This document shows positions 1 through 18,858 of a DNA stretch of 47,556 bases, in pieces. The stretch's first letter is position 1, and every line of letters begins with the position of its first letter. The stretch lies in contig SKWO01000009.1 in assembly GCA_007128895.1 (NCBI GenBank), forward strand, positions 1-47,556, written 5' to 3'. Made by a program: the position numbers and the translations under genes. The DNA is from Gammaproteobacteria bacterium (GTDB taxonomy: Bacteria > Pseudomonadota > Gammaproteobacteria > SKWO01). The notes beneath the pieces were generated by a model. The model saw nothing but the letters and a program-made list of their open reading frames with translations, was not told the DNA's origin and made no database searches.

Positions 1-2675
1 CGGGGCGGGTGGTCTCGGTGCTGCTCGATCCGGCCCGGTTGGCGGGCTACGGTCTCGCCTTCGATGATCTGCAGCGCGCCCTGCAGCTTGCCAATGTACG
101 GATGCCGGCCGGTACGCTGGTCGAGAGTGGCGTCGAAATCCAGGTCGATGCCGGCAACTTTTTGAGCAGTGTGGATGAGGTGGCCGATCTGGTGGTCGGC
201 CTGCACGCCGGGCTGCCGATCTTCCTGCGTGATGTCGCCGATGTCACCTTCGGTGCGGCCCAGCCGCAGCAGTATGTCCGTTACGGTGTCGGCGAGGCCG
301 GCCGCGATGTCGATGCAGCACTGGTCGGCGACTTTCCCGCCGTGACGGTGGCGATAGCCAAGCAACCGGGGACCAATGCGGTCCAGATCGCCGATTCGGT
401 GATCGAGCGCTTCGAACAGCTCAGGGGCATCTATGTGCCGGAAGGGATAGTCGCCTCGGTGACGCGCAACTACGGCGAGACGGCCAACGAGAAGGCGCAG
501 ACGTTGATGCTCAAGCTCGCCTTCGCCACCGGTTCGGTGGTGTTGCTGATCTGGATCGCGCTCGGTTGGCGCGAGGCGATCGTGGTCGGCGCCGCTGTGG
601 TCATCACCCTGGCGATCACCCTCTTTGCCTCGTGGGCGTGGGGCTTTACCCTGAACCGGGTCTCACTCTTCGCGCTGATCTTCTCCATCGGCATCCTCGT
701 CGATGATGCCATCGTGGTGGTCGAGAACATCCACCGCCACATGAGCATGGGCGGCAAGAAGCTGCTCGAGGCGATCCCCGAGGCGGTCGACGAGGTCGGC
801 GGGCCGACCATCCTGGCCACTTTTACCGTGATCGCCGCCCTGCTGCCGATGGCCTTCGTCACCGGGTTGATGGGGCCGTACATGAGCCCGATCCCGATCA
901 ACGCCAGCATGGGGATGTTCATCTCGCTGGTGGTCGCCTTTGTCATCACGCCGTGGATGAGCTACCGCTTCCTGGGTAACCACTACGCCGCGCTGGCCAG
1001 CCACGGGGGAGGCCATGGCGAGGGCGCCAGCGACCGCATGTACGCCTTCTTCCAGAAGAGCATGGGCCCCTTCCTGCACGGCGACGCCGGCCGTGGTCGT
1101 CGTTACCAGCTGCTGGCGGTGGTGCTGGTGCTGATCCTCGCCTCGGTCAGCCTGGCCGGCTTCAAGCTGGTGATCCTGAAGATGCTGCCATTCGACAACA
1201 AGTCGGAGTTCCAGGTCGTCGTCGACATGCCGGAGGGGACGCCGCTGGAGCAGACCGCGCGGGTGCTGGATGAGCTGGGTGCCTATCTGGCCACCGTGCC
1301 CGAGGTGACCGATTATCAGGTCTACGCCGGTACCGCCAGCCCGATCAACTTCAACGGTCTGGTGCGCCAGTACTACCTGCGCGGCGAGCCGCATCAGGGC
1401 GATATTCAGGTCAATCTGGCTCACGCCAGCGAACGCCGCCGCAGTAGCCACGAGATCGCCCTCTCGGTGCGAGAGCCGCTGCAGAGCATCGGTGCGCGCT
1501 TCGACGCCAACGTCAAGATCGTCGAGGTGCCGCCCGGCCCGCCGGTGCAGGCGCCGCTGGTGGCCGAGATCTACGGCCCCGACTACGCCGGTCAGCAGCG
1601 TGTGGCTCAGGCGGTGCGCGCCGTCTTCGAAGGCACCGCCGAGGTGGTCGACGTCGACGACAGTGTCGAGGCAGCGCAGCCGCGCCTGCTGGTGCAGGTC
1701 GATCGACAGCGTGCCGCCCGGCTCGGCGTGGCCCAGGCTGCCGTGGTCGAGGCCGTGGCCGCCGCCTTGGGTGGCGCCGACGTCACCTGGCTGCACGACG
1801 ACCACGCCAAGTACGCCATCCCGATCCGGATCGAACTGCCGCGCGGGGAGAAGGTCGACGCCCAGCGCCTGCTCGATCTGCGCGTACGCGGCCACGAGGG
1901 TGCCCTGATCCCGCTCGGCGAGCTGGTCACCCTCGAACACTCGGTGCGCGAGCAGACCATCTACCACAAGGACCTGCTGCCGGTCGTCTTCGTCACCGGC
2001 GATGTCGCCGGCCAGACCGACAGCCCGCTCTACGGCATGTTCGACATCTTCTTCACCTTGATGGGTAAGGAGATCGACGGGCGCATCCTGCCGCAGTACC
2101 TGATCAATACGCCGGAGAACCCGTACCAGTACTCGATCAAGTGGGACGGCGAGTGGCAGGTCACCTACGAGACCTTCCGCGACATGGGGCTGGCCTACTC
2201 GGTCGGGCTGATCCTGATCTACCTGCTGGTGGTGGCGCAGTTCCGCTCCTACCTGGTACCGCTGATCATCATGGCACCGATTCCGCTGACCATCATCGGC
2301 GTCATGCCGGGCCACGCCCTGCTCGGTCAGCAGTTCACCGCCACCTCGATGATCGGCATGATCGCGCTGGCCGGTATCATCGTGCGCAACTCGATCCTGC
2401 TGGTCGACTTCGTCAACGACGAGGTGCGCAAGGGGGTCGATCTGGAAGAGGCGGTGATCCGCGCCGGCGCTGTACGCGCCAAGCCGATCGCCCTGACCGG
2501 CGCTGCGGCGATGATCGGCGCGCTGTTCATCATCGACGACCCGATCTTCAACGGTCTGGCCATCTCGCTGATCTTCGGCATCTTCGTCTCCACCGTGCTG
2601 ACCCTGATCGTCATCCCGGTGATGTACTACGCCTTCATGCGCAACCGGCTGACGCAGATCACCGCCACCGCATGA
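1..2675 (+). CDS. RND efflux transporter permease subunit (AcrB/HAE-type), 5'-truncated by window edge
   Basis: 888-aa open frame; motifs 'FSIGILVDDAIVVVENIHRH', 'GPTILATFTVIAALLPMAFV', 'TSMIGMIALAGIIVRNSILLVDF', normal C-terminus 'VIPVMYYAFMRNRL'. Frame is open to the window start. Confidence 0.93.
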   Translation, partial: GRVVSVLLDPARLAGYGLAFDDLQRALQLANVRMPAGTLVESGVEIQVDAGNFLSSVDEVADLVVGLHAGLPIFLRDVADVTFGAAQPQQYVRYGVGEAGRDVDAALVGDFPAVTVAIAKQPGTNAVQIADSVIERFEQLRGIYVPEGIVASVTRNYGETANEKAQTLMLKLAFATGSVVLLIWIALGWREAIVVGAAVVITLAITLFASWAWGFTLNRVSLFALIFSIGILVDDAIVVVENIHRHMSMGGKKLLEAIPEAVDEVGGPTILATFTVIAALLPMAFVTGLMGPYMSPIPINASMGMFISLVVAFVITPWMSYRFLGNHYAALASHGGGHGEGASDRMYAFFQKSMGPFLHGDAGRGRRYQLLAVVLVLILASVSLAGFKLVILKMLPFDNKSEFQVVVDMPEGTPLEQTARVLDELGAYLATVPEVTDYQVYAGTASPINFNGLVRQYYLRGEPHQGDIQVNLAHASERRRSSHEIALSVREPLQSIGARFDANVKIVEVPPGPPVQAPLVAEIYGPDYAGQQRVAQAVRAVFEGTAEVVDVDDSVEAAQPRLLVQVDRQRAARLGVAQAAVVEAVAAALGGADVTWLHDDHAKYAIPIRIELPRGEKVDAQRLLDLRVRGHEGALIPLGELVTLEHSVREQTIYHKDLLPVVFVTGDVAGQTDSPLYGMFDIFFTLMGKEIDGRILPQYLINTPENPYQYSIKWDGEWQVTYETFRDMGLAYSVGLILIYLLVVAQFRSYLVPLIIMAPIPLTIIGVMPGHALLGQQFTATSMIGMIALAGIIVRNSILLVDFVNDEVRKGVDLEEAVIRAGAVRAKPIALTGAAAMIGALFIIDDPIFNGLAISLIFGIFVSTVLTLIVIPVMYYAFMRNRLTQITATA

Positions 2676-5904: not shown

Positions 5905-7254
5905 TCAGGCGATGCTGTGGCGTACCATCTTGCGCCACAGCGTCGAGCGGTCGATACCGAGCGAGCGGGCGGCCTCACTGCGGTTGCCACCGGCCGTTTG
6001 CAGCGCCATCAGGATGCGTTCGCGCTCGTTGTGTTCGCTGCTGTCGTTACGGTCGCGTGCGGTGGTGCAGCGGTACAGGTCGGACGTCTGGCTGCAGCGG
6101 ATGTCCGGCGGCAGACTCTCCGGCTGGATAACGCCGTCAAAGGCGCAGACCACGCCGTGTTCAATCGCATTCTCCAGTTCACGAACATTGCCCGGCCACG
6201 GGTAGTCCATCAGCAGGCGCAGCGCCTCGGGTGAGATGGATATCTCTTCCGGGTAGCCGCGCTCACGCATCAGCTCAAGGAAGTGCTCGACCAGCAGGGC
6301 GATGTCGCCCGGCCGCTCGCGCAGCGCCGGGATGCAGAGCGGGATCACCGCCAGACGGTAGTAGAGGTCGGCGCGAAACCGCTCTTCATCGACCAGCGTG
6401 CGTAGACTGCGGTTGGAGGCGGCGATGATGCGGACATCGACCTGGATCGGCTTGTCGCTCCCGACCATCTCGAACGACTGGTCCTGGATCACGCGTAGCA
6501 GCTTGGCCTGCAGATTGATCGGTATCTCGCTGATCTCATCGAGAAAGAGGGTGCCGCCGTCAGCCGCGCGAAAGCGACCCTGTCGGTCACTGGTGGCGCC
6601 AGTGAAGGCGCCCCGTACATGGCCGAAGAGCTCCGATTCGATCAGCGTTTCGGGGATCGCCGCGCAGTTGACCTCGATGAAGGGGCGCCGTGCTCGGTCA
6701 CTCAGTCCGTGGATCATGCGCGCGATGCGTGTCTTGCCGGTGCCGGATTCGCCCTGCAGCAGGACGAAGGCGTTGCTCGGGGCGATCTGTTGCAACCGTT
6801 GCAACAGGTCGAGCATGGTGGCATCACGGGTGATGATGCCGCTGTCGCTGCCGCCGAGCAGGCTTTGCAGACGGTGCTGATGGGTGCGGTCCTTGATCAG
6901 CACCACACGCACCCGTGCCGGGATCTGCTTCAGGTCGACGATGCCGCTGTGGATCTCCAGGTAGCGCTGGTCGTTGTCGAGCCGCACCTGCTCGGTAAAG
7001 CGGACAAAGCGACCGCTCGGTCGGCCGGCGGCATCGGCTTCACCGGAGTCGATGGCTGCGCGCAGGATGCTCTTCTGCAGATTGATGTTGCCCAACTTGC
7101 GTACATTCTTGGGTGTGTCGCCTTCGGGCAGCCCGAGCAGGTGGCCCACAGCGGCATTGGCGTAGATGACATCGCCGTCTTCGCGTGCCAGGATGACCCC
7201 TTCGTCGACCACGCTGACGATCGACTCCAACATGGCTATCAGTGTGTTGAGCAC
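5905..7254 (-). CDS. PAS domain, sigma54-interacting AAA+ transcriptional activator (bEBP) with Fis-type HTH
   Basis: N-terminal PAS-like region; 'GESGTGKT', 'GAFTGA', 'FLDEISEIP', C-terminal 'GNRSEAARSLGIDRSTLWRKM'. Confidence 0.93.
   Translation of the reverse strand: MLNTLIAMLESIVSVVDEGVILAREDGDVIYANAAVGHLLGLPEGDTPKNVRKLGNINLQKSILRAAIDSGEADAAGRPSGRFVRFTEQVRLDNDQRYLEIHSGIVDLKQIPARVRVVLIKDRTHQHRLQSLLGGSDSGIITRDATMLDLLQRLQQIAPSNAFVLLQGESGTGKTRIARMIHGLSDRARRPFIEVNCAAIPETLIESELFGHVRGAFTGATSDRQGRFRAADGGTLFLDEISEIPINLQAKLLRVIQDQSFEMVGSDKPIQVDVRIIAASNRSLRTLVDEERFRADLYYRLAVIPLCIPALRERPGDIALLVEHFLELMRERGYPEEISISPEALRLLMDYPWPGNVRELENAIEHGVVCAFDGVIQPESLPPDIRCSQTSDLYRCTTARDRNDSSEHNERERILMALQTAGGNRSEAARSLGIDRSTLWRKMVRHSIA
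6787..6807. promoter_or_regulatory. Candidate regulator-binding palindrome CTGTTGCAAC-C-GTTGCAACAG inside the activator CDS
   Basis: 10-bp perfect arms, 1-nt centre; similar half-sites to the intergenic palindrome at 7340-7361. Confidence 0.3.
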
Positions 7255-7490: not shown

Positions 7491-7507
7491 TGGCACGCCA
7501 TTTGCTT
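7491..7507 (+). promoter_or_regulatory. Sigma54 (-24/-12) promoter TGGCACG-CCAT-TTGCTT
   Basis: Matches consensus TGGCACG-N4-TTGC with GG-N10-GC spacing; faces the RND adaptor and lies opposite a GAFTGA-type activator gene. Confidence 0.8.
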
Positions 7508-7565
7508 TAGGTGACGGGCCGTGATGGCACGATTCGAATTCAATCTGACTGCAAGCAGCGAAACC

Positions 7566-8741
7566 ATGACCTACAACGTAAAGTCCGTTACCCCATCGCT
7601 CAGAACTGTTGTTGCCCTGACCACTCTGGTGGCGGCAGCATGGGCCGTACTGCCAGCCGCCCACGCCGACAGCCCGCTGGGGCGCATCGTCTCCGTCGAG
7701 GCGGCGCCGGCTGCCGGGCAGCGTGTCGGCGGTACCGTGGTGCCCTTCAAGGTGGTCACGCTGACCGCACAGGTCAACGGCCGGGTGGTGCAGGTGGCCG
7801 GTGAGGTGGGTGAACATTTTCAGAACGGTGCCGTGCTGGCGGCGATCAACGATGCGCGCTTTCTGGCCCAGCGCCAGGCGGCGATAGCCGAGTTGCGCAC
7901 GGCCGAGTCGGCGCTGCGCGAGGCGCAGATGCAGTTCAGTCGCGAGATCTACTCGCCGCAGTCACAGAACATTGGCATGGCGCCCGGCTTTGGTATTCCC
8001 TCGCTCTTTGACCAGATGTTCACCCGCCCGGCTGGACAGATGATGGGCTACGGAAACCCCTGGGTCGATCGCCAGGCCGACCTCCACTCGCGCCATACCG
8101 GCATCGATCAGGCGATGGCGCGCGTGCATCAGGCGCGTTCACGACTGGATGAGCTCGATACGATGATTCGGGATACCCGCTCGATAGCGCCGTTCGATGG
8201 CACGATCATGGCCAGACACGTCGAAGAGGGCGATACGGTGCAGCCGGGGCAGCCGCTGATCACCTTCGGCCATACCCGGTTTCTGCGCGTCGAGGCCCAT
8301 GTGCCGGTGCGGCTGGTCGAGCGGCTTGAGGTCGGCATGCTGATCCCGGCTGTGCTCGATATCGGGCGTACCGAGGTGATGGCGCGTGTGGCACAGATCT
8401 ACCCGCTCGCCGACCCCGAGCGTCATACCGTCCTGGTCAAGCTGGATCTGCCGCAAGGGGTGCCTGGCGGGCCGGGCATGTACGTCGATCTGCAGCTCCC
8501 TGGGGCGGGGCGTGACGGCGGGGTACTGACCATCCCGGCCAGCGCCATCATCCCCGGTGCCTCTTTGCCGCGAGTCGTTGTGGTGGATGCGCAGGGGCAG
8601 GCGCAAGTTCGCATGGTACGCCTGGGCGGCGAAGAGGGCGGGCGCGTGACGGTGCTGTCTGGCCTGAATGAGGGTGAGCGGTTACTCGATGCTCCGCCAG
8701 CCAATATCCGTTCCGGTCAGCCGGTGGGCGGTCGGCGCTGA
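7566..8741 (+). CDS. RND efflux periplasmic adaptor (HlyD/MFP family)
   Basis: Signal peptide 'LRTVVALTTLVAAAWAVLPAAHA', 'AQVNGRVVQVAGEVGEHFQNGAVLAAIND', 'SIAPFDGTIMARHVEEGDTVQPGQPL'. Track ORF begins at GTG 7521; ATG 7566 preferred because the predicted sigma54 transcript starts near 7517. Confidence 0.9.
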   Translation: MTYNVKSVTPSLRTVVALTTLVAAAWAVLPAAHADSPLGRIVSVEAAPAAGQRVGGTVVPFKVVTLTAQVNGRVVQVAGEVGEHFQNGAVLAAINDARFLAQRQAAIAELRTAESALREAQMQFSREIYSPQSQNIGMAPGFGIPSLFDQMFTRPAGQMMGYGNPWVDRQADLHSRHTGIDQAMARVHQARSRLDELDTMIRDTRSIAPFDGTIMARHVEEGDTVQPGQPLITFGHTRFLRVEAHVPVRLVERLEVGMLIPAVLDIGRTEVMARVAQIYPLADPERHTVLVKLDLPQGVPGGPGMYVDLQLPGAGRDGGVLTIPASAIIPGASLPRVVVVDAQGQAQVRMVRLGGEEGGRVTVLSGLNEGERLLDAPPANIRSGQPVGGRR

Positions 8742-8808
8742 TTGTCGGCGCACCGCTGTTGAGTTGTTTCCCGCTAGATTCACGTAACCGAACACGATTT
8801 GAGTGACC

Positions 8809-11800
8809 ATGTCTGACAAAGCGACTAACGATCAGGGGCAGGGCAAGCACGGCTTCGACATGGCGGGGGCCATGGCTGCCGCCTTCATTCACTCGCCGCT
8901 CTCACCGCTGCTGCTGGTGGCCAGTATTGCGGTGGGCATCCTCGGTCTGATGATGACGCCACGCCAGGAAGATCCGCAAATCTCGGTGCCGATGGTGGAC
9001 ATCTTTGTCAGCTACCCCGGTGCGTCAGCCGAGCAGGTGGCCAGCCTGGTGGCCAGCCCGCTGGAACGGATCATGAGCGAGATTCCCGGGGTTGAACACG
9101 TCTACTCTGCCTCGCACCGCGACCATGCCATGGTCACCGTGCAGTTCGAGGTCGGTGAGCAGATGGAGTCGTCGCTGGTCAAGCTCTACGACAAGCTGGC
9201 CTCGAATCGAGATCGAATACCCCCAGGTGTCTCCGAACCGTTGGTCAAGCCCAAGGGGGTCGACGACGTCCCGGTCGTCACCGTGACACTCTGGTCGCAT
9301 GAACTGGATGACGCCATGCTGCGCCAGATCGGCTTGGAGGCGTTGCAACGGGTCAATGAGGTGCCCAATACCAGTCAGAGCTTCATCGTCAGCGGTCGCG
9401 AGGAGCAGATGCGCATCGAGCTGCTGCCGGAGCGCATGATGGGCTTCAATATCACCACGGATCAGATTGCCAATGCCGTGCGTGCCGCCAACAGCGAACG
9501 CGGCGTCGGTCGCATCGAGGCAGAGGGGCAGACGTTCTCGGTCTATACCGGTGCCTTCCTGCGCCACGCCGGTGATCTGGAGCGGCTGCTGGTGGCCGTA
9601 CACAACGGCCGTCCGGTCTATCTGCGTGATGTGGCCCGCATCAGCCACGGACCGGGCGAGACCCAGCGCATGGTCAAGTACTACCCCGGTGTCGCCGGCA
9701 ACCTCGGCCTGGAGGTTGACGGTGCCCAGGCTGTTACCCTGGCCGTGGCCAAGAAGGTCGGCTCCAATGGTGTCACCGTGGCCAATGGGGTGCTTGCGCA
9801 GATCGAACAGCTCAGAGGGGTCGTGATCCCGGACAACGTCAATGTCGCGATTACCCGAAATTATGGCGAGACCGCCAACGACAAGGTCAACGAGCTGATC
9901 TTCAAGCTCTTCATCGCTACCGGTGCGGTGACCCTGCTGGTCTGGCTCTTTCTGGGCGTGCGGGCTGCCGGTGTGGTGCTGGTGGTCATCCCGGTGGTCA
10001 TTCTGTTTACCGTCTTTTCGGCTTGGGTGCTGGGCTATACCATCGACCGGGTCAGCCTCTTTGCCCTGATCTTTGCCATCGGCATTCTGGTCGACGACGC
10101 CATTGTCGTGGTCGAGAATATCTATCGGCGCTGGTTGATCAAGAAGGATATCGATACCGAGACCACCATCGATGCGGTGCGTGAGGTCGGTAACCCAACC
10201 ATCCTGGCCACCTTCACCGTCATTGCAGCCCTGCTGCCGATGGGCTTTGTCTCCGGCATGATGGGGCCGTACATGGAGCCGATCCCGGCGCTCGGATCGG
10301 TTGCCATGCTCTTCTCGTTGGTGGCCGCCTTCCTCTTTACGCCGTGGCTGACCATGCGCTTGCGTCCGAGCATGGCCTCGCTGGCCAAGGCGGCAGAGAA
10401 GGAGCACCGCCAGAGCGAGCAGCTCGGCAGGCTCTTTCGCCGGATGATCCCCGGGCTGGCCGAGAACCGCCTGCGTGGTTGGGGCTTCCTGCTGGCGATC
10501 ATCGCGCTCTTCTTCATCAGCGCGTCGCTTTTTTACACCACGGATGTCCGCGTGAAGATGCTGCCGTTGGACAACAAGCCCGAGTTCAACGTGGTCATCA
10601 ACTTCCCCGCCGGCACCGCCCTGCCGGTGACCGCCAACCTGACCCACGACCTGGCCGAACGGCTGCGCCAGATCCCTGAGGTGACGGCGGTTCAGACCTA
10701 TGTCGGCACCGCTTCGCCGTTCAACTTCAACGGCCTGGTGCGCCACTACTACCTGCGCCAGGAGCCGTGGCAGGCCGATATTCAGGTCCAGCTGCAGCAC
10801 AAGCGTGATCGTCGGCGCTCCAGCCACGAGATCGCTGTTCAAGTGCGCGAGCAGCTGGCGCCGATCGCTCGAGCAGCCGGTGCGCGGATTCAGGTGGTCG
10901 AGATGCCGCCCGGCCCGCCGGTGCTGCAGTCGGTCGTGGCCGAGATCTACGGCCCGGACGCCGAGACCCGACGCCAGTTCGCTCGTGACATGATGGCCAT
11001 GTTCGAACAGGCCGAGCACCTGGACGACGTCGACAGCTACCTGCAGGAGCCGCATCAGGTCTGGCACTTTGAGGTCGACCGCGACAAGGCGCTGCGGCTG
11101 GGGATTACCGTCGATGCGATCAACCGCACCCTGGAGTACGCGCTGGGCGGTGCTACCCTGGGCAGCATCAAGCCGATCTCGATGGTCGAGCCGACCCTGA
11201 TCGTGATGCAGGTGCCGCTCGAGCTGCGCGCCAACCTCGATCAGCTCACCATCCTGCCGGTCGCCTCGATGTTCGGTGGCAGTGTCGCCCTCGGCGAGCT
11301 GGGTCAGTTCCAGCGCCGCTGGCAGGACGATCCGATCTACCACAAGGATCTGCGCCCGGTCGAGTTCGTCACCGCCGAGACGGTCGGGCGGCTGGCGGCG
11401 CCGATCTACGGTATGCTCGAGGTGCAGCGGCTGCTGGACGACTACACCGCGCCCGACGGCGTGCAGCCGACGGCCCACTGGATTGCGCCGCCGCCGGGCG
11501 ACAGTCAGTCGGCCTTCGAATGGAGCGGTGAGTGGACGGTGACCTATGAGACCTTCCGCGACATGGGTATCGCCTTTGCCATCGCCCTGGTGCTGATCTA
11601 CATGCTGGTGGTCTGGGAGTTCGGCAACTTCGTCCTGCCGGCGATCGTCATGGCGCCGATCCCGCTGACCCTGATCGGTATTATCCCGGGTCACTGGCTG
11701 TTCAACGCCGAATTCACCGCCACCTCGATGATCGGCTTCATCGCCCTGGCCGGGATCATCGTGCGCAACTCGATCCTGTTGGTGGATTTCTCGAGGCAGG

Positions 11801-12801
11801 CGATGGATCAGGGCGCGGGCATCATGGATGCGCTGGTCGAGGCGTGCCAGGCGCGTACCCGTCCGATCATCATTACCGCGCTGGCGCTGGTTGCCGGCTC
11901 CAGTGTCATCCTGTTCGATCCGATCTTCCAGGGCATGGCGATCTCGCTGATGTTCGGTACCGTGGTCTCGACCCTGCTGACCCTGCTAGTCATTCCGCTC
12001 GGCTGCATCAGTGGGCGACGCGCCTTCTGTCCAGCCTCGCTCAGTGGCAGCGGTGCACTGGTCTGTGATGACGGCCACGGCAATGGCCATGGTCACGCCG
12101 CTGGACGCTCTGCCGACATGCGCGGTGCCGTGGGTGTGGGGCGTCGGCCGGGGCCGATCTCCACCGCGCTGGGTTATGCCGGACTCTACCTGCAGGCGCT
12201 GGCATTGAGCCTGCTGGAAGGGCTGGTTGACCTGTACAAGGCGGCGCTGAAGCTGGTGCGTCGGCTGCTGCAGCGTCGTCGCTCGGCACCTCTCCCACCG
12301 CCACCAGCGGCGCCCACGCCGCCCAGTCCACCCCCAGTGACGGAGCCGGGGGCGGAGACTCCGGCGGTCGAGCGGCCGGTCACGAGCGATACTGAAAAGC
12401 CGCAAAAAACGGGGAGTGCAACCGCACGCAAAGCGGTTCACAATGAAGCATCCGGGGCAGCGCGCCCGGCCAGCAAGAAGGCCGACGCTGCGGATGGGGA
12501 GGAGACGGTGGACAAGCCGGTCGTGAAACGGGTGCGCAAGACGGCTGCCAAGCCTCGCGCTCGGACCGGTGCCACCGAAGAGGGGAAAGAGACGGCCAAA
12601 AAAGGAGCACGTACCTCCGGTTCGCGTGCCTCCAAAAGCAAGAGCAAGGCCGATGAAGGGGAGGGCAAGGTGGCCGCCAAGGCCACCTCTGCCAAGCCAC
12701 GGGCCACGGCAAGCGGGCGTACGGCTAGAACCCGTCGTGGTATCCGGCTCAAGTCCACCGAGCAAGCAACCGATTCGAAAAAAGACGAAGGCAAGGAGTA
12801 A
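8809..12801 (+). CDS. RND efflux permease with long Pro-rich plus Lys/Ala/Arg-rich (histone H1-like) C-terminal extension
   Basis: Full RND core with 'FAIGILVDDAIVVVENIYRRW', 'GIIVRNSILLVDFS'; core ends near 'LTLLVIPLGCIS', followed by ~265 further residues. Start taken as ATG 8809. Confidence 0.92.
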   Translation: MSDKATNDQGQGKHGFDMAGAMAAAFIHSPLSPLLLVASIAVGILGLMMTPRQEDPQISVPMVDIFVSYPGASAEQVASLVASPLERIMSEIPGVEHVYSASHRDHAMVTVQFEVGEQMESSLVKLYDKLASNRDRIPPGVSEPLVKPKGVDDVPVVTVTLWSHELDDAMLRQIGLEALQRVNEVPNTSQSFIVSGREEQMRIELLPERMMGFNITTDQIANAVRAANSERGVGRIEAEGQTFSVYTGAFLRHAGDLERLLVAVHNGRPVYLRDVARISHGPGETQRMVKYYPGVAGNLGLEVDGAQAVTLAVAKKVGSNGVTVANGVLAQIEQLRGVVIPDNVNVAITRNYGETANDKVNELIFKLFIATGAVTLLVWLFLGVRAAGVVLVVIPVVILFTVFSAWVLGYTIDRVSLFALIFAIGILVDDAIVVVENIYRRWLIKKDIDTETTIDAVREVGNPTILATFTVIAALLPMGFVSGMMGPYMEPIPALGSVAMLFSLVAAFLFTPWLTMRLRPSMASLAKAAEKEHRQSEQLGRLFRRMIPGLAENRLRGWGFLLAIIALFFISASLFYTTDVRVKMLPLDNKPEFNVVINFPAGTALPVTANLTHDLAERLRQIPEVTAVQTYVGTASPFNFNGLVRHYYLRQEPWQADIQVQLQHKRDRRRSSHEIAVQVREQLAPIARAAGARIQVVEMPPGPPVLQSVVAEIYGPDAETRRQFARDMMAMFEQAEHLDDVDSYLQEPHQVWHFEVDRDKALRLGITVDAINRTLEYALGGATLGSIKPISMVEPTLIVMQVPLELRANLDQLTILPVASMFGGSVALGELGQFQRRWQDDPIYHKDLRPVEFVTAETVGRLAAPIYGMLEVQRLLDDYTAPDGVQPTAHWIAPPPGDSQSAFEWSGEWTVTYETFRDMGIAFAIALVLIYMLVVWEFGNFVLPAIVMAPIPLTLIGIIPGHWLFNAEFTATSMIGFIALAGIIVRNSILLVDFSRQAMDQGAGIMDALVEACQARTRPIIITALALVAGSSVILFDPIFQGMAISLMFGTVVSTLLTLLVIPLGCISGRRAFCPASLSGSGALVCDDGHGNGHGHAAGRSADMRGAVGVGRRPGPISTALGYAGLYLQALALSLLEGLVDLYKAALKLVRRLLQRRRSAPLPPPPAAPTPPSPPPVTEPGAETPAVERPVTSDTEKPQKTGSATARKAVHNEASGAARPASKKADAADGEETVDKPVVKRVRKTAAKPRARTGATEEGKETAKKGARTSGSRASKSKSKADEGEGKVAAKATSAKPRATASGRTARTRRGIRLKSTEQATDSKKDEGKE

Positions 12802-12804
12802 GCA

Positions 12805-13629
12805 ATGCATTCAATCAACCACGCCGATCGCACGGCACCCCTGCGCAGAACACCACTGGCTGCACTGGTCATGCTGACCATCGGCATGGGTGTGCCCGCC
12901 GCCGTATTGGCCGAAGAGGGCGCGGCAGAGCGGGCCTCCGAGGCGGTTCAGGCACCGCCACCGCCGGGGCCGTTCCAGTCGTTTGGCCAGGACCACCGCT
13001 TCGAGCAGCGTGGCTCGATGGGTTCGCGCGGCCAGTATGGCCACTTTCCCCCGCCGGGATACGACCCTGAGCAGCGTGCGCAGGGCCGTCCGGCCATGCC
13101 GATGCATCCGCCGATGCCGCCCCATCAGGGTGGGCAGCCCTTCCCGCCGCACGGGTATGGCCACCCGGCGCCGCCGGCAGGCGGTATGTCCGTCCCACCG
13201 AGCCACGCGCCGGCCCATGGCTACAGGTCGGCCCCACCGGGACATGCGCCTCAAGCTGGGCGCCCAGACCACGCTGGCCGTCCCGGTCACGCCGGACCAC
13301 CCCAGCATCGCCCAATGCCGCACGGCCAACACCCCTACGGGCGTTCGCCTGAGCACGAGGCGTGGATGCAGCAGCGCCAGGCCGAGCGTGAAGCGTTTCT
13401 GCGTGAGCAGGCGGCCGAGCGAGAGGCCTTCCAGCGCCATCAGGAAGAGCGTCGTCGGGCCTGGGAGGCGCGCCAGCAAGAGCGTGATGCCCGTTGGGGC
13501 GAGCGTGGCGAGCAGCGCGGCATGCCGGACGATTTCGGCCAGCGTCCGATGGCGCCACAGCATGGCTATGGCATGCCCCCGTACCCGGGCTATCCCCAGC
13601 CGGGCTGGTCGCCAAGAGGGCGTGACTGA
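12805..13629 (+). CDS. Secreted Pro/His/Gly-rich protein with charged helical (QAEREAF-type) segment
   Basis: Signal peptide ending 'MGVPAAVLAEEG'; low-complexity 'PPMPPHQGGQPFPPHGYGHPAPP'; 'QRQAEREAFLREQAAEREAFQRHQEERRRAWEARQQERDARW'. Starts 3 nt after the permease stop. Confidence 0.7.
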   Translation: MHSINHADRTAPLRRTPLAALVMLTIGMGVPAAVLAEEGAAERASEAVQAPPPPGPFQSFGQDHRFEQRGSMGSRGQYGHFPPPGYDPEQRAQGRPAMPMHPPMPPHQGGQPFPPHGYGHPAPPAGGMSVPPSHAPAHGYRSAPPGHAPQAGRPDHAGRPGHAGPPQHRPMPHGQHPYGRSPEHEAWMQQRQAEREAFLREQAAEREAFQRHQEERRRAWEARQQERDARWGERGEQRGMPDDFGQRPMAPQHGYGMPPYPGYPQPGWSPRGRD

Positions 13630-13656
13630 GGTGGTTTCCGGTGATGGACAACGGGT

Positions 13657-14091
13657 ATGCCGATGAGTGAGCGTACAACAGTGGCCCGGGTCGGGCTGGC
13701 GGTAACCGTGTTGGCCGTCAGCTCGCTGGCCGTGGCTGAGATGCGAGGGGGAAATCCCTGGAGTCTATCGCCACCGCCGTCCGCCCCGGTCTTCTCGGTC
13801 GATGGCGGACACACGGGTGCGTTCCCGCCCCAGGGTTACCGTCCATCCTCGGGTCCGGGTGGTGACGGCCCAGCCTCGGGCTGGCCCGCACCTGTGCCGA
13901 TGCCGCACACCTCTACCCACGGGATGCCTTGGGGTGCGCAGTACGGGACCCCCTTTGGGCATACGCCTCATGGGAGTGGATGGCCCTACTCGGCACCGCC
14001 TCATCTGGGCATCCCCCCCTATTCGGGAGTTCAGCCTTGGGTGCCATCCCACAGCTACTTTCCGTTTACCGGGTTTCCCCTGCTCTACTGA
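13657..14091 (+). CDS. Small secreted Pro/Gly-rich protein
   Basis: N-terminal hydrophobic signal 'VARVGLAVTVLAVSSLAVAEM'; Pro/Gly/Ser/His-rich remainder, ends 'YFPFTGFPLLY'. Confidence 0.6.
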   Translation: MPMSERTTVARVGLAVTVLAVSSLAVAEMRGGNPWSLSPPPSAPVFSVDGGHTGAFPPQGYRPSSGPGGDGPASGWPAPVPMPHTSTHGMPWGAQYGTPFGHTPHGSGWPYSAPPHLGIPPYSGVQPWVPSHSYFPFTGFPLLY

Positions 14092-14194
14092 TCAGGAACC
14101 CTTGAAACCCCGTGCACCGACCTGATTGTCCTCCAGGTCGCTGCCCTGTATCTGGTCGGAGAGGACGTCTTAAATCAACTGGAGGTAGTTTCTT

Positions 14195-14674
14195 ATGCGC
14201 AAACTTATCAAGATGGCCGCTGTTGCCGTGGCCCTGGGCTCCCTGCCGATGGCCGCTTCTGCCCAAGCCTGGGGACCGGGCTGGGGTGGTCCGGGTTGGG
14301 GCGGTCCAGGCTGGGGTGGCCCGGGCGGCTGGGGTGGTCCGGGCTACTACGGTGCCCCGTGGGGCGGTCCGGGTCATTATGGTGCCGCTCCGTGGGGCGG
14401 TCCGGGCTGGGGCAACTGGGGGCCGGGCACCGGTACGGGATTCGGCGATACCTTCGGCGACATGTTCGGTGACATGGACTTCAGCATGCGTGGCAGCGGC
14501 CGCGGTCGTGGTCACGGTACCGGCCAAGGCTATGGCCACCAGCAGCCGTACGGCTACGGCCATCCTGGCCACTGGGGTGGTGCACCGCACTGGGGCCAGC
14601 AGGCGCCGCACTGGGGTCAACAGGCTCCGCAGTGGGGCCAGCCGCCGCAGCAGGCCCCTCAGGGCGGTAACTAA
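14195..14674 (+). CDS. Sulfur globule protein-like secreted Gly/Trp/Pro-rich repeat protein
   Basis: Strong SD GGAGG; signal '[20 protein letters not shown]'; GWGGP repeats; '[25 protein letters not shown]', resembling the GFGD...GDMDF.M segment remembered from Chromatiaceae sulfur globule proteins. Confidence 0.65.
14276..14354 (+). repeat. In-frame tandem 15-nt repeat array encoding (GWGGP)n
   Basis: ggctggggtggtccg / ggttggggcggtcca / ggctggggtggcccg units read directly. Confidence 0.75.
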
Positions 14675-14686
14675 GCTGGCAGCTGT

Positions 14687-14708
14687 GCGCCCACACGGAT
14701 GTGGGCGC
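14687..14708 (+). terminator. Hairpin GCGCCCACA-CGGA-TGTGGGCGC; possible intrinsic terminator/attenuator or mRNA-stabilising stem
   Basis: 9-bp perfect stem with 4-nt loop 13 bp after the globule-protein stop; followed by CACGCCTTTCTTGT (interrupted T-tract). Confidence 0.5.
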
Positions 14709-14739
14709 CACGCCTTTCTTGTCAACGTATGGGGGAGCG

Positions 14740-15366
14740 ATGATCACCGTTATCGGTAACCTGAAGGGAGGGACCGGCAAGAGCACGGTCGCCTTCAACC
14801 TCGGTCTCTGGCTGGCTGTGCGTGAGCGCACGGTCACCATGATCGATCTCGATCCGCAGGCGACCCTCAGCGAGGTCCTGTCGATTCGGCAGGAGGAGGG
14901 GTATCAGCCCGTACTTCAGGGGTATGCAGCGCTCTCGGCGCTCAGCGACAGCCAAGCGGACGAGACGATCATCGATGTCGGTCCTTCGGCGCTTGAAACC
15001 ATGATGGAGGCGATCCGCCGTGCCGATCGCGTGGTGATTCCGGTGCCGCCCAGCCAGGCGGATGTCTGGTCGACCGAACGTTTTGTTGGCATGATCGACG
15101 ATGCCTGCGGGCGCGCCAAGCGTCGTCCCACCCTGCATGCCTTTATCAATCGTGCCGATACCCATCAGGCGGTACGCGAAAGCGACGAGGCCAGTGAGGC
15201 GTTGTCGATGATCTCGCAGATTGACGTGCTGACGCCTCGATTGGCGCAGCGCATGGCCTTCCGCCGCTCATTCAGTGAGGCACTGGCGGCCTTTGAACTT
15301 GAACCCGCGGGCAAGGCGGCGCTGGAGCTCGACTCCCTGGCGACCCTGTTGTACCCGTCGGTCTGA
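14740..15366 (+). CDS. ParA/MinD-family (McdA-like) P-loop ATPase, no adjacent ParB
   Basis: 'MITVIGNLKGGTGKSTVAFNLGLWL' (deviant Walker A with signature Lys), 'MIDLDPQATLSEVL'. ATG 14740 with GGGGGAG SD. Confidence 0.88.
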   Translation: MITVIGNLKGGTGKSTVAFNLGLWLAVRERTVTMIDLDPQATLSEVLSIRQEEGYQPVLQGYAALSALSDSQADETIIDVGPSALETMMEAIRRADRVVIPVPPSQADVWSTERFVGMIDDACGRAKRRPTLHAFINRADTHQAVRESDEASEALSMISQIDVLTPRLAQRMAFRRSFSEALAAFELEPAGKAALELDSLATLLYPSV

Positions 15367-15400
15367 TCCGATTCTTACCTTATCCTTCAGGAGTGATTGC

Positions 15401-16063
15401 ATGAACGTCTTACGCTGGATCTTCAGCCACCTCTTTCTCGTCATGGTCCTTATCATCCTCGCCTACGGCTGGTTCATCCGCGAGGATCTGGCCGACTGGT
15501 ACCGAGGTGGTGACCGTCAGAGCGTCGAGCTTGAGGCGACGACTGAGGTCGCACCCGTGGTGACGCAAGGGCGTCAGGAGGCAGCGGAGCGACGGGCGCG
15601 GGAGTCGGTTGAGGCCCTGCGTGAAGAGGCGCGCTCCGTACGTCAGGACGCGCCTTCGGTCGTGCCGACTGAGCGGTCGACTCGGGAGCGTGCGCCGACA
15701 CAGCCGGCTGAGCCCGCTGGTGTGGAACAAACAGAGACCGTCAGCCTGCAGCAGGCGCGTACGGCCTTCTGGCAGGGGGAGCATGAGCGGGCCATCGAGC
15801 TCTATCAAGCGCTAATCGCTCAAGGCAAGGCCACGCCAGAACTGCATGGTGAGTTGGGCAACATCCTGGGCTGGGTTGGACGCATGGATGAGGCGCTCGA
15901 CGCGCTCGAACAAGCGGCAGAAGGGCTGTTGGCCGAGCAGCGTTTTGCGGAAGTGGTGGCCATGCTGCCGGCGATCCACACGCACCGTCCGCAGTTGGCC
16001 GAGCGACTCCATCAGCGCCTGCTCGAAGCCCGGCGCAAGGCGGTTCAGCCGAGCGTCGACTGA
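15401..16063 (+). CDS. Single-TM protein with C-terminal TPR-like repeats
   Basis: 'WIFSHLFLVMVLIILAYGWFI' TM; 'ARTAFWQGEHERAIELYQALIAQGKATPELHGELGNILGWVGRMDEALDALEQAA' TPR pattern. ATG 15401 preferred over upstream 15275. Confidence 0.75.
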   Translation: MNVLRWIFSHLFLVMVLIILAYGWFIREDLADWYRGGDRQSVELEATTEVAPVVTQGRQEAAERRARESVEALREEARSVRQDAPSVVPTERSTRERAPTQPAEPAGVEQTETVSLQQARTAFWQGEHERAIELYQALIAQGKATPELHGELGNILGWVGRMDEALDALEQAAEGLLAEQRFAEVVAMLPAIHTHRPQLAERLHQRLLEARRKAVQPSVD

Positions 16064-16107
16064 CGGGCCTGTTTTGATAATAACGATAACCATGGGGCAA
16101 TGAGCCG

Positions 16108-16629
16108 ATGAGCCAGTTGGACCGCGAAGTCACCACCAGTATCCGTATCTCCAAGCAGCTGCAGTTGATTGTCTATTCGGCGATGATTGCCTTCATTGTT
16201 CTGGCGGCGTACGGCTTCTTTCTGGTCAACAGCCTGACCCGAGACGTCAATGTGCTGGCCAAGGAGGTGGCCAACATGGCGCAGACGGTGAATCGTGAGG
16301 TGGTGGCGATCTCCCACCGGATGCAGGATATCTCGTCGGCCATCACCGAGATGGATGGCAACATGGGTCAGATGAGCGTCAACATCCGCTCAATGGCGGC
16401 CGATACCCGCAGTATGGCAGTGACCACCTACAACATGCAGCGCGACATGTGGAGTCTCAATCAGAACGTCTCGGCACCGTTCGGCTTCATGAACCAGATG
16501 GTGCCGTGGGGTGGGGTCAATCAGGGGCCGTACCCGGGATCTGTGCCGGCACCACCGCCGGGCTTCAGCCCGATGCCGCCGGTGCAGCAGCGCCAGGCGG
16601 CGCCGGCAACGCCCCGGTCGCGCGACTGA
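16108..16629 (+). CDS. Single-TM coiled-coil protein with Pro-rich C-terminus
   Basis: 'LIVYSAMIAFIVLAAYGFFLV' TM followed by a long predicted helix 'NVLAKEVANMAQTVNREVVAISHRMQDISSAITEMDGNMGQMSVNIRSM', then 'PAPPPGFSPMPPVQQ'. Confidence 0.7.
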   Translation: MSQLDREVTTSIRISKQLQLIVYSAMIAFIVLAAYGFFLVNSLTRDVNVLAKEVANMAQTVNREVVAISHRMQDISSAITEMDGNMGQMSVNIRSMAADTRSMAVTTYNMQRDMWSLNQNVSAPFGFMNQMVPWGGVNQGPYPGSVPAPPPGFSPMPPVQQRQAAPATPRSRD

Positions 16630-16650
16630 CCTTACGGATGGGAGAGTATA

Positions 16651-18177
16651 GTGTTCAACCGAGCAGACAAGCGGGTCAATGAGCAGCTGAAACGGCTGAG
16701 TGAGCGATTGGCGGAGGAGAACCCGCTGCTCAAGGACATCGTCGGCCAGTTTCAGCGGCTTGACCGGCTGGCCTACCGCATGGGGTTGCTGGGTCCGGAA
16801 CAGTCGTATGCCTTTACCATCTCCTGGTGGCCGATGGTGGCCGTGCTCGGCACCTTCTCCGCCGGCAAATCGAGCTTCATCAACGCCTATCTTGGCCAGG
16901 ATGTGCAGCGTACCGGCAACCAGGCGGTCGATGACCACTTTACCGTCATCTGCTACGGCGCCTCCGACGCGGTCAAGGAGCTGCCGGGGGTCGCGCTGGA
17001 TGGCGATCCACGCTTTCCCTTTTATCGGGTCAGTGACGAAATTGCGCGGGTCGGCAGTGACCGTGGACGCAGCGTCGACCACTACCTGAAGATGAAGACG
17101 TGCCGCGCTGAGCCGTTGCGCGGGCGCATACTGATCGACTCACCGGGCTTCGATGCCGATGAGCAGCGTACCGAGATCCTGCGCCTGACCGATCACATCA
17201 TCGATCTGTCGGACCTGGTGCTGGTCTTCTTCGACGCCCGCCACCCCGAGCCGGGCGCGATGCGCGACACCCTCGAGTATCTGGTCAGCCGCGTGGCCGA
17301 GCGCAACGACGCCGGCAAGCTGATGTTCATCCTCAACCAGATCGACACCACCTGGCACGAGGACAACCTGGAAGAGGTGGTCTCCGCCTGGCAGCGCGCC
17401 GTGGTACGCAAGGGGAGCGATACCGGACGCTTCTACTGTATCTACAATCCGCAGCAGGCGGTGCGGATCGAAGAGCCGCTGATCGAGGAGCGCTACCGTC
17501 AGAAGGCGGGCCATGACCGCGATGAGATCCACCAGCGCATTGCCGGCGTGACCCTGTCGCGTAGCTACCGCATCGTCGGCTCCCTGCAGGCGATGGCCGA
17601 CCGCATCGAGCAGCAAGCCGTGCCGGCGCTGTGCGAGGCGTTGGCCCGCTGGTCGAAACGGGTGGCTCTCTACGACGGACTCGCCTACGCGGCATTGGCT
17701 GCCGTCGTACTGGCTGCGACCCATCTGGTAACCGGTTCGGTCACCGTGCTCTTCCAGCCGGGCTGGATCGACTACCTGGCCGAGCGTCCAATGACTGCCA
17801 GTCTGGTCGGGGCCGGTGTGATTGCCATACTGGGGGCGATCCACTACACCATGCGTCGTACGGCTGCCCGACAGATCGCTCGCCAGATGGCCACCGAGCA
17901 GCCGGAGGGCAATCTGCAGCGTGCCTTTCTCAAGAATACCCGTTTCTGGCACAGTCTCTGGCGCAACCGGCCGACCGGGTGGGGCCGTTCGGCCAGTCGT
18001 CTTTTGAGGGATTTGCGTGAGAATGCCGAGGGCTATGTCCAGCGGCTTAACAATGCCTTCGTCGATCCGGTCGGACGCCATCCGGAGGGCGAAGCGGCGC
18101 ATCAGGCGACGAGCGTACAGCAGAATAACCATAATGTGAGCGAGGGGAGCAACGAGGAACGCTCAACAGGAGGGTGA
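16651..18177 (+). CDS. Dynamin-like GTPase with C-terminal TM segments
   Basis: G1 'GTFSAGKSS', G3 'DSPGF', G4 'NQID'; C-terminal hydrophobic segments 'AALAAVVLAATHLVTGSVTVLF' and 'LVGAGVIAILGAIHYTM'. GTG start. Confidence 0.82.
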   Translation: MFNRADKRVNEQLKRLSERLAEENPLLKDIVGQFQRLDRLAYRMGLLGPEQSYAFTISWWPMVAVLGTFSAGKSSFINAYLGQDVQRTGNQAVDDHFTVICYGASDAVKELPGVALDGDPRFPFYRVSDEIARVGSDRGRSVDHYLKMKTCRAEPLRGRILIDSPGFDADEQRTEILRLTDHIIDLSDLVLVFFDARHPEPGAMRDTLEYLVSRVAERNDAGKLMFILNQIDTTWHEDNLEEVVSAWQRAVVRKGSDTGRFYCIYNPQQAVRIEEPLIEERYRQKAGHDRDEIHQRIAGVTLSRSYRIVGSLQAMADRIEQQAVPALCEALARWSKRVALYDGLAYAALAAVVLAATHLVTGSVTVLFQPGWIDYLAERPMTASLVGAGVIAILGAIHYTMRRTAARQIARQMATEQPEGNLQRAFLKNTRFWHSLWRNRPTGWGRSASRLLRDLRENAEGYVQRLNNAFVDPVGRHPEGEAAHQATSVQQNNHNVSEGSNEERSTGG

Positions 18178-18180
18178 GAG

Positions 18181-18372
18181 ATGAACTATCTGGTCTGGGT
18201 GCTGTTCGGTGTGGCCATGCTGCTGGTGCCGATCTCGCTGCTGGCGGCGCTGACCGCCTTTGGCGTCTGCGTCGGCTGCGCCACACTGCGTGATCTGCGT
18301 CGTCGCTGGGGGCTGCGGCGTCAGCCATCCGAAGCGGCTGATTCGACAAAATCGTTCACACAATCACAATGA
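18181..18372 (+). CDS. Small membrane protein
   Basis: 63 aa, hydrophobic N-terminal two thirds; ATG with 'AGGAGGGTGAGAG' SD; 3 nt after the dynamin-like gene. Confidence 0.6.
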   Translation: MNYLVWVLFGVAMLLVPISLLAALTAFGVCVGCATLRDLRRRWGLRRQPSEAADSTKSFTQSQ

Positions 18373-18390
18373 CGAGAGGGAGATTTGCGC

Positions 18391-18858
18391 ATGAGTGAGA
18401 AAAAACTGGCCATCATCGCCACCAAGGGGAGCCTCGACTGGGCCTATCCGCCCTTCATCCTGGCCTCGACTGCTGCGGCACTGGGCTATCAGGTACAGAT
18501 ATTCTTTACCTTCTATGGTCTGCAGTTGCTGAAGAAGAAGCTCGATCTGGAGGTCACTTCGCTGGGTAATCCGGGCATGCCGATGCCGATGCCCATGCCG
18601 GTGCTGCTGCAGGCGCTGCCGGGCATGCAGAAGATGATGACCATGATGATGAAGAAGAAGATGCAGTCCAAGGGGGTCGCCAGCCTGGAAGACCTGCGCG
18701 ATCTTTGCATCGAGGCCGAAGTACGCATGACGGCCTGTCAGATGACAGTCGACCTCTTCGAGATGGAGACGGCCGAGTTCATCAGCGGGATCGAGTATGC
18801 CGGCGCAGCGGCCTTCTTCGAGTTTGCCGGCGAGTCGGATATCTGCCTGTATATCTGA
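18391..18858 (+). CDS. DsrE2-type DsrE/DsrF-like sulfur carrier family protein
   Basis: 'LAIIATKGSLDWAYPPFILASTAAALGYQVQIFFTFYGLQLL', 'PMPMPMPVLLQALPGMQKMMTMMMKKKM', 'MTACQMTVDLFEM' with the conserved Cys. Confidence 0.85.
   Translation: MSEKKLAIIATKGSLDWAYPPFILASTAAALGYQVQIFFTFYGLQLLKKKLDLEVTSLGNPGMPMPMPMPVLLQALPGMQKMMTMMMKKKMQSKGVASLEDLRDLCIEAEVRMTACQMTVDLFEMETAEFISGIEYAGAAAFFEFAGESDICLYI

Follow-up and report, generated by a model that had tools for sequence, protein, structure and literature searches.

A conserved gene module, consisting of a membrane-fusion protein (MFP), an RND permease, secreted low-complexity proteins (one of them a Pfam sulfur globule protein, SGP), a ParA-family ATPase, a TM-anchored TPR protein (TM-TPR), and a TM-coiled-coil protein (CC), often with a DUF302 protein and often with a dynamin-like GTPase, is found across Gammaproteobacteria, Alphaproteobacteria, and Magnetococcales. 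Its co-occurrence with SGP and with Dsr/Sox genes ties it to SGP-encoding sulfur oxidizers. We lean, by a small measure, toward the view that the locus is an envelope machine for periplasmic sulfur globules, in which the RND pump would act as a ParB-equivalent adaptor through docking of an RRGIxLK motif on ParA.

The module was encountered in a gammaproteobacterial genome (assembly GCA_007128895.1). The window, i.e., the whole stretch of DNA that was analyzed, is 47,556 nucleotides long and represents one contig (SKWO01000009.1) of this draft genome (1.65 Mb, 81% complete). Because the genome encodes SoxB as well as fragments of DsrA and DsrB at a contig edge, the source organism is considered a sulfur oxidizer, and it most likely uses the reverse Dsr pathway. 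All nine same-strand genes that the first-pass annotation reported at positions 12805-18858, with gaps of 3 to 103 bp, are present (Table 1). However, the operon starts further 5′ than described there: the MFP gene and, behind it, the RND permease gene, which ends 3 bp before g1, had been missed. In domain scans, g1, g2, CC, and the small TM protein matched no family above threshold, and the window contains no tRNA genes.

Table 1. Features of the window, with the number of dynamin loci (of 81) in which the gene recurs
Feature	Coordinates	Strand	Loci (of 81)	Remarks
Second AcrB-type RND permease	9-2675			Cut by contig start
Sigma-54 activator (PAS, AAA, HTH_8)	5908..7254	-		Pfam; divergent, possible regulator, outside conserved core
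Sigma-54-type promoter TGGCACGCCATTTGCT	7491..7506	+		Sole exact consensus match in window; just upstream of MFP
MFP, HlyD-type membrane-fusion protein	7521..8741	+	29	Pfam HlyD_D23/HlyD_3
RND permease	8803..12801	+	36	ACR_tran at residues 25-1066; C-terminal tail at 12001-12798
RRGIRLK motif near RND C terminus	12733..12753	+		Proposed ParA-docking peptide
g1, secreted low-complexity protein	12805..13629	+		PPPPGPF after signal peptide; charged coiled-coil-like stretch
g2, secreted low-complexity protein	13657..14091	+		NPW motif
g3, sulfur globule protein family	14195..14674	+		SGP, PF17228
ParA-family ATPase, ParF-like	14740..15366	+	43	Signature Lys present
TM-TPR, TM-anchored TPR protein	15401..16063	+	36	TPR by domain scan
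CC, N-terminal TM and coiled coil	16108..16629	+	42	Module-specific marker
Dynamin-like GTPase, C-terminal TM region	16651..18177	+	81	Dynamin_N; nucleotide motifs intact
Small TM protein, accessory	18181..18372	+		Thioalkalivibrio-type loci only
DsrE2 sulfur carrier protein, accessory	18391..18858	+		Thioalkalivibrio-type loci only

An alignment of the dynamin-like GTPase was used as query and yielded 80 named loci; their open reading frames were clustered, and genes were counted over 81 loci. Since ParA, CC, RND, and TPR genes each recur in 36 to 43 of these, the arrangement is not attributable to chance. Further neighbors are a TM-DUF302 protein (23/81) and a DUF4412 protein (17/81). The genes are usually arranged as MFP-RND-secreted proteins-(DUF4412)-ParA-TPR-(DUF302)-CC-dynamin, except that the dynamin gene of Sedimenticola and Thiodiazotropha is divergent from the MFP-to-CC block. 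Besides these two genera, hosts of dynamin loci include Thioalkalivibrio, Thiothrix, Cocleimonas, Leucothrix, Magnetovibrio, and a Rhodospirillaceae bacterium, and ParA and a tailed RND are present in Magnetococcales. The expectation of a conserved neighborhood thus holds for ParA, TPR, the coiled-coil protein, and dynamin but fails for DsrE2 and the small TM protein, which are confined to the window and five Thioalkalivibrio-type loci and are therefore regarded as accessories. The window DsrE2 scores well within its family (290.9 bits against a cutoff of 210 for NF047629), and a second DsrE2 is encoded elsewhere in the source genome; as a core component, DsrE2 was rejected, being limited to one group of relatives. 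Loci L203 and L286 (G042) show apparent decay of the module: the DUF302 and MFP frames are broken, no RND or CC was found, and ParA, TPR, dynamin, and SGP are kept.

Gene co-occurrence was examined in a profile set of 94 gammaproteobacterial genomes, one per family, with the gene sets transcribed by hand from tables. The 16 genomes that have CC are exactly those that have the RND orthologue; ParA is present in 15 and SGP in 16. The p values that follow are indicative only, because the 94 genomes share ancestry and are not phylogenetically independent. SGP is encoded in 15 of the 16 genomes with CC and RND versus 1 of the 78 others (p = 2.7e-15), and ParA also co-occurs with SGP (p = 1e-13). 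The association of CC and RND with SGP persists when only copies outside the operon are considered (p = 2.5e-12), even among dsrA-positive genomes alone (p = 4e-5); for dsrA itself, p = 4e-8. Judging from the SGP and dsrA values, the module follows SGP more tightly than sulfur oxidation in general. On the whole, the earlier interpretation is partly supported: its globule connection and core neighborhood are borne out, while the inclusion of DsrE2 and the small TM protein is not.

Three secreted low-complexity proteins had been proposed, and all three are encoded, but only g3 is a recognized SGP (PF17228; E = 8e-10; 39.9 bits, gathering cutoff 26.7). In relatives, the interval between RND and ParA encodes two or three exported proteins of low complexity, which have short motifs in common. 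In simple pattern searches, which give rough counts, counterparts of PPPPGP[FY] (g1 type) were found in 9 of 32 loci, NPW (g2 type) in 14 of 32, and the GD..M..GRG stretch (g3, SGP type) in up to 18 of 32, the last pattern also picking up some spurious frames. SgpA to SgpD of Allochromatium vinosum are likewise Sec-exported low-complexity coat proteins. The abundant coat protein SgpD localizes to globules, and its gene adjoins one for a hydrophobic/amphiphilic exporter, as g1 adjoins the RND gene, a likeness of gene position only. In contrast to the locus described here, the account of the A. vinosum system includes neither ParA nor dynamin nor a tail link, and sgpD is reported to be its own transcription unit (PMC10386293).

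The ATPase matches AAA_31/CbiA above the Pfam cutoff and has the deviant Walker A motif KGGTGKST with the invariant signature lysine (K9) that defines the ParA/MinD family. Its closest solved relative, in both sequence and fold, is ParF of plasmid TP228 (TM-score of 0.84 for the predicted structure, pLDDT 94). The best NCBIfam model is NF041546 (ParA family partition ATPase), for which the score of 127.4 bits lies below the cutoff of 180. Among the operon proteins, there is no match to ParB and none to McdB or carboxysome proteins. In the initial description as a ParA/McdA-like ATPase without ParB, "McdA-like" is loose, since the signature lysine is kept and ParF is closest.

The RND permease shares the ACR_tran core and an MFP partner with HAE-family efflux pumps, such as MdtB and AcrB. 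It differs from them in its long disordered tail with RRGIxLK and in its scores against multidrug models (474 bits for NF033617 and 346 bits for NF000282), both below the cutoff of 1250. No outer-membrane factor gene was seen in the operon. After TM12, RND tails (n = 45) extend for 126 to 354 residues of low complexity, often rich in lysine, alanine, or proline, a composition from which their disorder is predicted. The motif RRGI[RQK]LK lies 0 to 19 residues from the C terminus, with 37 tails carrying RRGIRLK, 4 in RRGIQLK, 2 in RRGIKLK, 1 in RRGIRLR, and 1 in YRGIRLK. Motif identity is 95%, versus 14% in the 60 residues preceding it; shuffled tails contained the motif in 0 of 90,000 cases, and other open reading frames selected in the loci lack a motif of this type. 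A function of the tail as a histone-like nucleoid tether is not favored, given that the tails listed have net charges between -7 and +45 and that the motif, not lysine richness, is conserved.

Every RND that adjoins ParA and has a readable C terminus carries the motif. Apparent exceptions are explained by variants (YRGIRLK in L091 and RRGIRLR in L254) or by a frameshift (G056, with RRGIKLK in the next frame), and the tails of G074 and G009 are cut at contig ends. The motif is still present where ParA lies on another contig (G083 and G105) and, as a point against the link to ParA, in two draft genomes in which ParA was undetected (G106 and G087). Four genomes (G079, which is complete, G094, G095, and G112) have no ParA orthologue genome-wide and keep an RND orthologue with a short tail that lacks the motif. 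In the tree, these four RNDs group together as a single clade inside the motif-bearing ones; thus, the coupled loss of ParA and the RND tail is a single evolutionary event and counts as one data point. Extra RND copies unlinked to ParA (G015, G056, G062, and G083) lack the motif, one having a degenerate RRGIRA. The paralogue L272 (G062:C71) has a tail ending in a different, non-low-complexity sequence in place of the motif, and the tails of L087 and L261 consist of tandem AEK or AAAEK repeats, which in L261 reach the contig end.

In known pumps (AcrB), RND termini are cytoplasmic. Because, in addition, RRGIRLK fits the peptides of known partners and the operon has no ParB, we propose the RND pump as the adaptor of ParA, and on these sequence grounds the link between ParA and the RND tail is a strong hypothesis. 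To our knowledge, known ParA partners use their N terminus, not their C terminus, which counts against docking by the RND C terminus. In combining a disordered terminus with a motif of basic and aliphatic residues (RRGI[RKQ]L[KR] in 45 tails), the tail resembles the partners of ParA/MinD ATPases, which engage the ATPase via short disordered peptides of this kind (PMC10241942, PMC12462528, PMC12204374). ParG, the partner of ParF, stimulates it through a flexible tail to which the RND tail may be likened; however, ParG is small, binds DNA, and has its tail at the N terminus, and the locus has no DNA-binding partner. The locus may also be likened to the carboxysome-positioning system McdAB, in which a ParA-family ATPase distributes an inclusion together with an adaptor whose terminus is charged and disordered (PMC12204374, PMC13052382). 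Unlike McdAB, it would serve extracytoplasmic cargo, and it has a ParF-like ATPase; the adaptor proposed here is a pump with 12 TM segments whose peptide is C-terminal.

The dynamin-like GTPase belongs to the dynamin superfamily, as indicated by Dynamin_N (54.5 bits, cutoff 27) and conserved G motifs (GTFSAGKS, DSPGFD, and NQxD). The structure model has a moderate mean pLDDT of 75, and its top fold matches are EHD4, the C. jejuni DLP pair, IniA, and mitofusin. Although the Dynamin_N GTPase is shared with EHD and bacterial dynamin-like proteins, the locus dynamin is a distinct family with a C-terminal TM region and a low TM-score overall (0.42), and a membrane-shaping role may be inferred from the model. 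In PADLOC it gave a weak match to LeoA, in the GTPase domain only. The protein was rejected as a defining marker because it exists without the module elsewhere (Nitrosomonas communis, Wenzhouxiangella limi, and Granulosicoccus-type genomes; L131, L065, L106, and L116) and also in three genomes without SoxB and DsrA above cutoff. A gene family lies 3′ of dynamin in L112, L110, L136, and L139; in L112, its member matches the phospholipid-transport protein MlaC, a hint of envelope lipid work.

In the machine that we propose, MFP and RND would form an inner-membrane exporter or scaffold, whatever substrate it may export. In the periplasm, SGP would coat or nucleate the globule together with the remaining secreted proteins of low complexity. 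The disordered RND tail would reach into the cytoplasm, where the terminal RRGIRLK would dock on nucleoid-bound, ParF-like ParA, probably stimulating it. As a ParB-equivalent adaptor, the RND pump may thereby place or space itself along with the globule attached to it. Scaffold parts would be TM-TPR, DUF302, and CC, and dynamin might shape the inner membrane around the globule. The first-pass annotation had the TM proteins joining ParA to periplasmic cargo; such a link stays a proposal, for which the RND tail motif is a better candidate than TM-TPR or CC. The fuller claim, that ParA acts across the inner membrane to position an organelle in the periplasm, via the RND pump and its C-terminal RRGIxLK, with dynamin shaping the membrane, and that this constitutes a dedicated globule biogenesis and segregation machine of Gammaproteobacteria, Alphaproteobacteria, and Magnetococcales, is tentative, and we rate it somewhat short of an even chance.

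Several other explanations were considered. ParA might space only pump clusters, with RND/MFP exporting for envelope traffic of sulfur oxidizers (an SGP-linked lipid, polysulfide, or other substrate) and globule location left uncontrolled. The tail motif indeed connects ParA to the pump and not directly to globules, and some loci have DUF4412 and MlaC-type neighbors suggestive of envelope transport; however, the module co-occurs almost perfectly with SGP, also when SGP lies outside the operon or when dsrA-positive genomes alone are considered, and SGP-type genes are located between RND and ParA, which makes this explanation rather unlikely. It also counts against a globule machine that module genes are present in some lineages without documented globule storage. 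An improbable explanation is that these are merely coregulated genes of a sulfur lifestyle with no joint mechanism, ParA serving something else. The exact coincidence of the CC and RND sets in 94 genomes and a tail motif that follows ParA and is lost with it speak against this, even though dynamin is found alone elsewhere, gene order is variable with ParA at times on another contig, and accessory genes vary by lineage.

The remaining explanations concern the tail and ParA itself. Following TM12, most tails have a hydrophobic stretch some 25 to 45 residues long, strong in many of them; were this stretch to cross the membrane, the tail would lie in the periplasm, and the basic, in many cases lysine-rich, tail might bind SGP or the sulfur of the globule, the ParA link being coincidental. 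Since the stretch is absent in L234 and L115 (where the motif is kept nonetheless), weak in the window, and followed by basic residues (lysine/arginine), a cytoplasmic tail is favored; together with the loss coupled to that of ParA, this makes the explanation very unlikely. Finally, ParA might have nothing to do with the operon and be a stray ATPase of plasmid or chromosome partition, as the best NCBIfam model could suggest. Its score is under the model cutoff, the operon is without parB, and the orthologues hold their neighborhood in Gamma- and Alphaproteobacteria; this synteny largely refutes the suggestion, to which we assign next to no probability.

Our literature searches on sulfur globules with ParA or dynamin found no described system, in agreement with the first-pass annotation, which knew of no described system that combines these parts, nor, in the literature searched, any machinery for making, placing, or sharing sulfur globules beyond the Sgp coat proteins. 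A review of bacterial organelle positioning deals with carboxysomes, magnetosomes, and granules of PHB and polyphosphate and leaves sulfur unmentioned (PMC13052382). Sulfur globules abound in sulfur oxidizers, both environmental and symbiotic, and the proposed machine, if real, would be the first known for building or placing them. ParA acting across the inner membrane through a transporter tail would likewise widen the range of ParA cargo. RRGIxLK is a short peptide open to direct testing, and CC and the tailed RND may serve as marker genes for globule-forming lineages.

With respect to regulation, a promoter and terminator scan gave nothing above chance. Most relatives lack a counterpart of the sigma-54-type promoter, and in four loci (L064, L066, L110, and L115) sites with one mismatch to the sigma-54 consensus lie 5′ of MFP.
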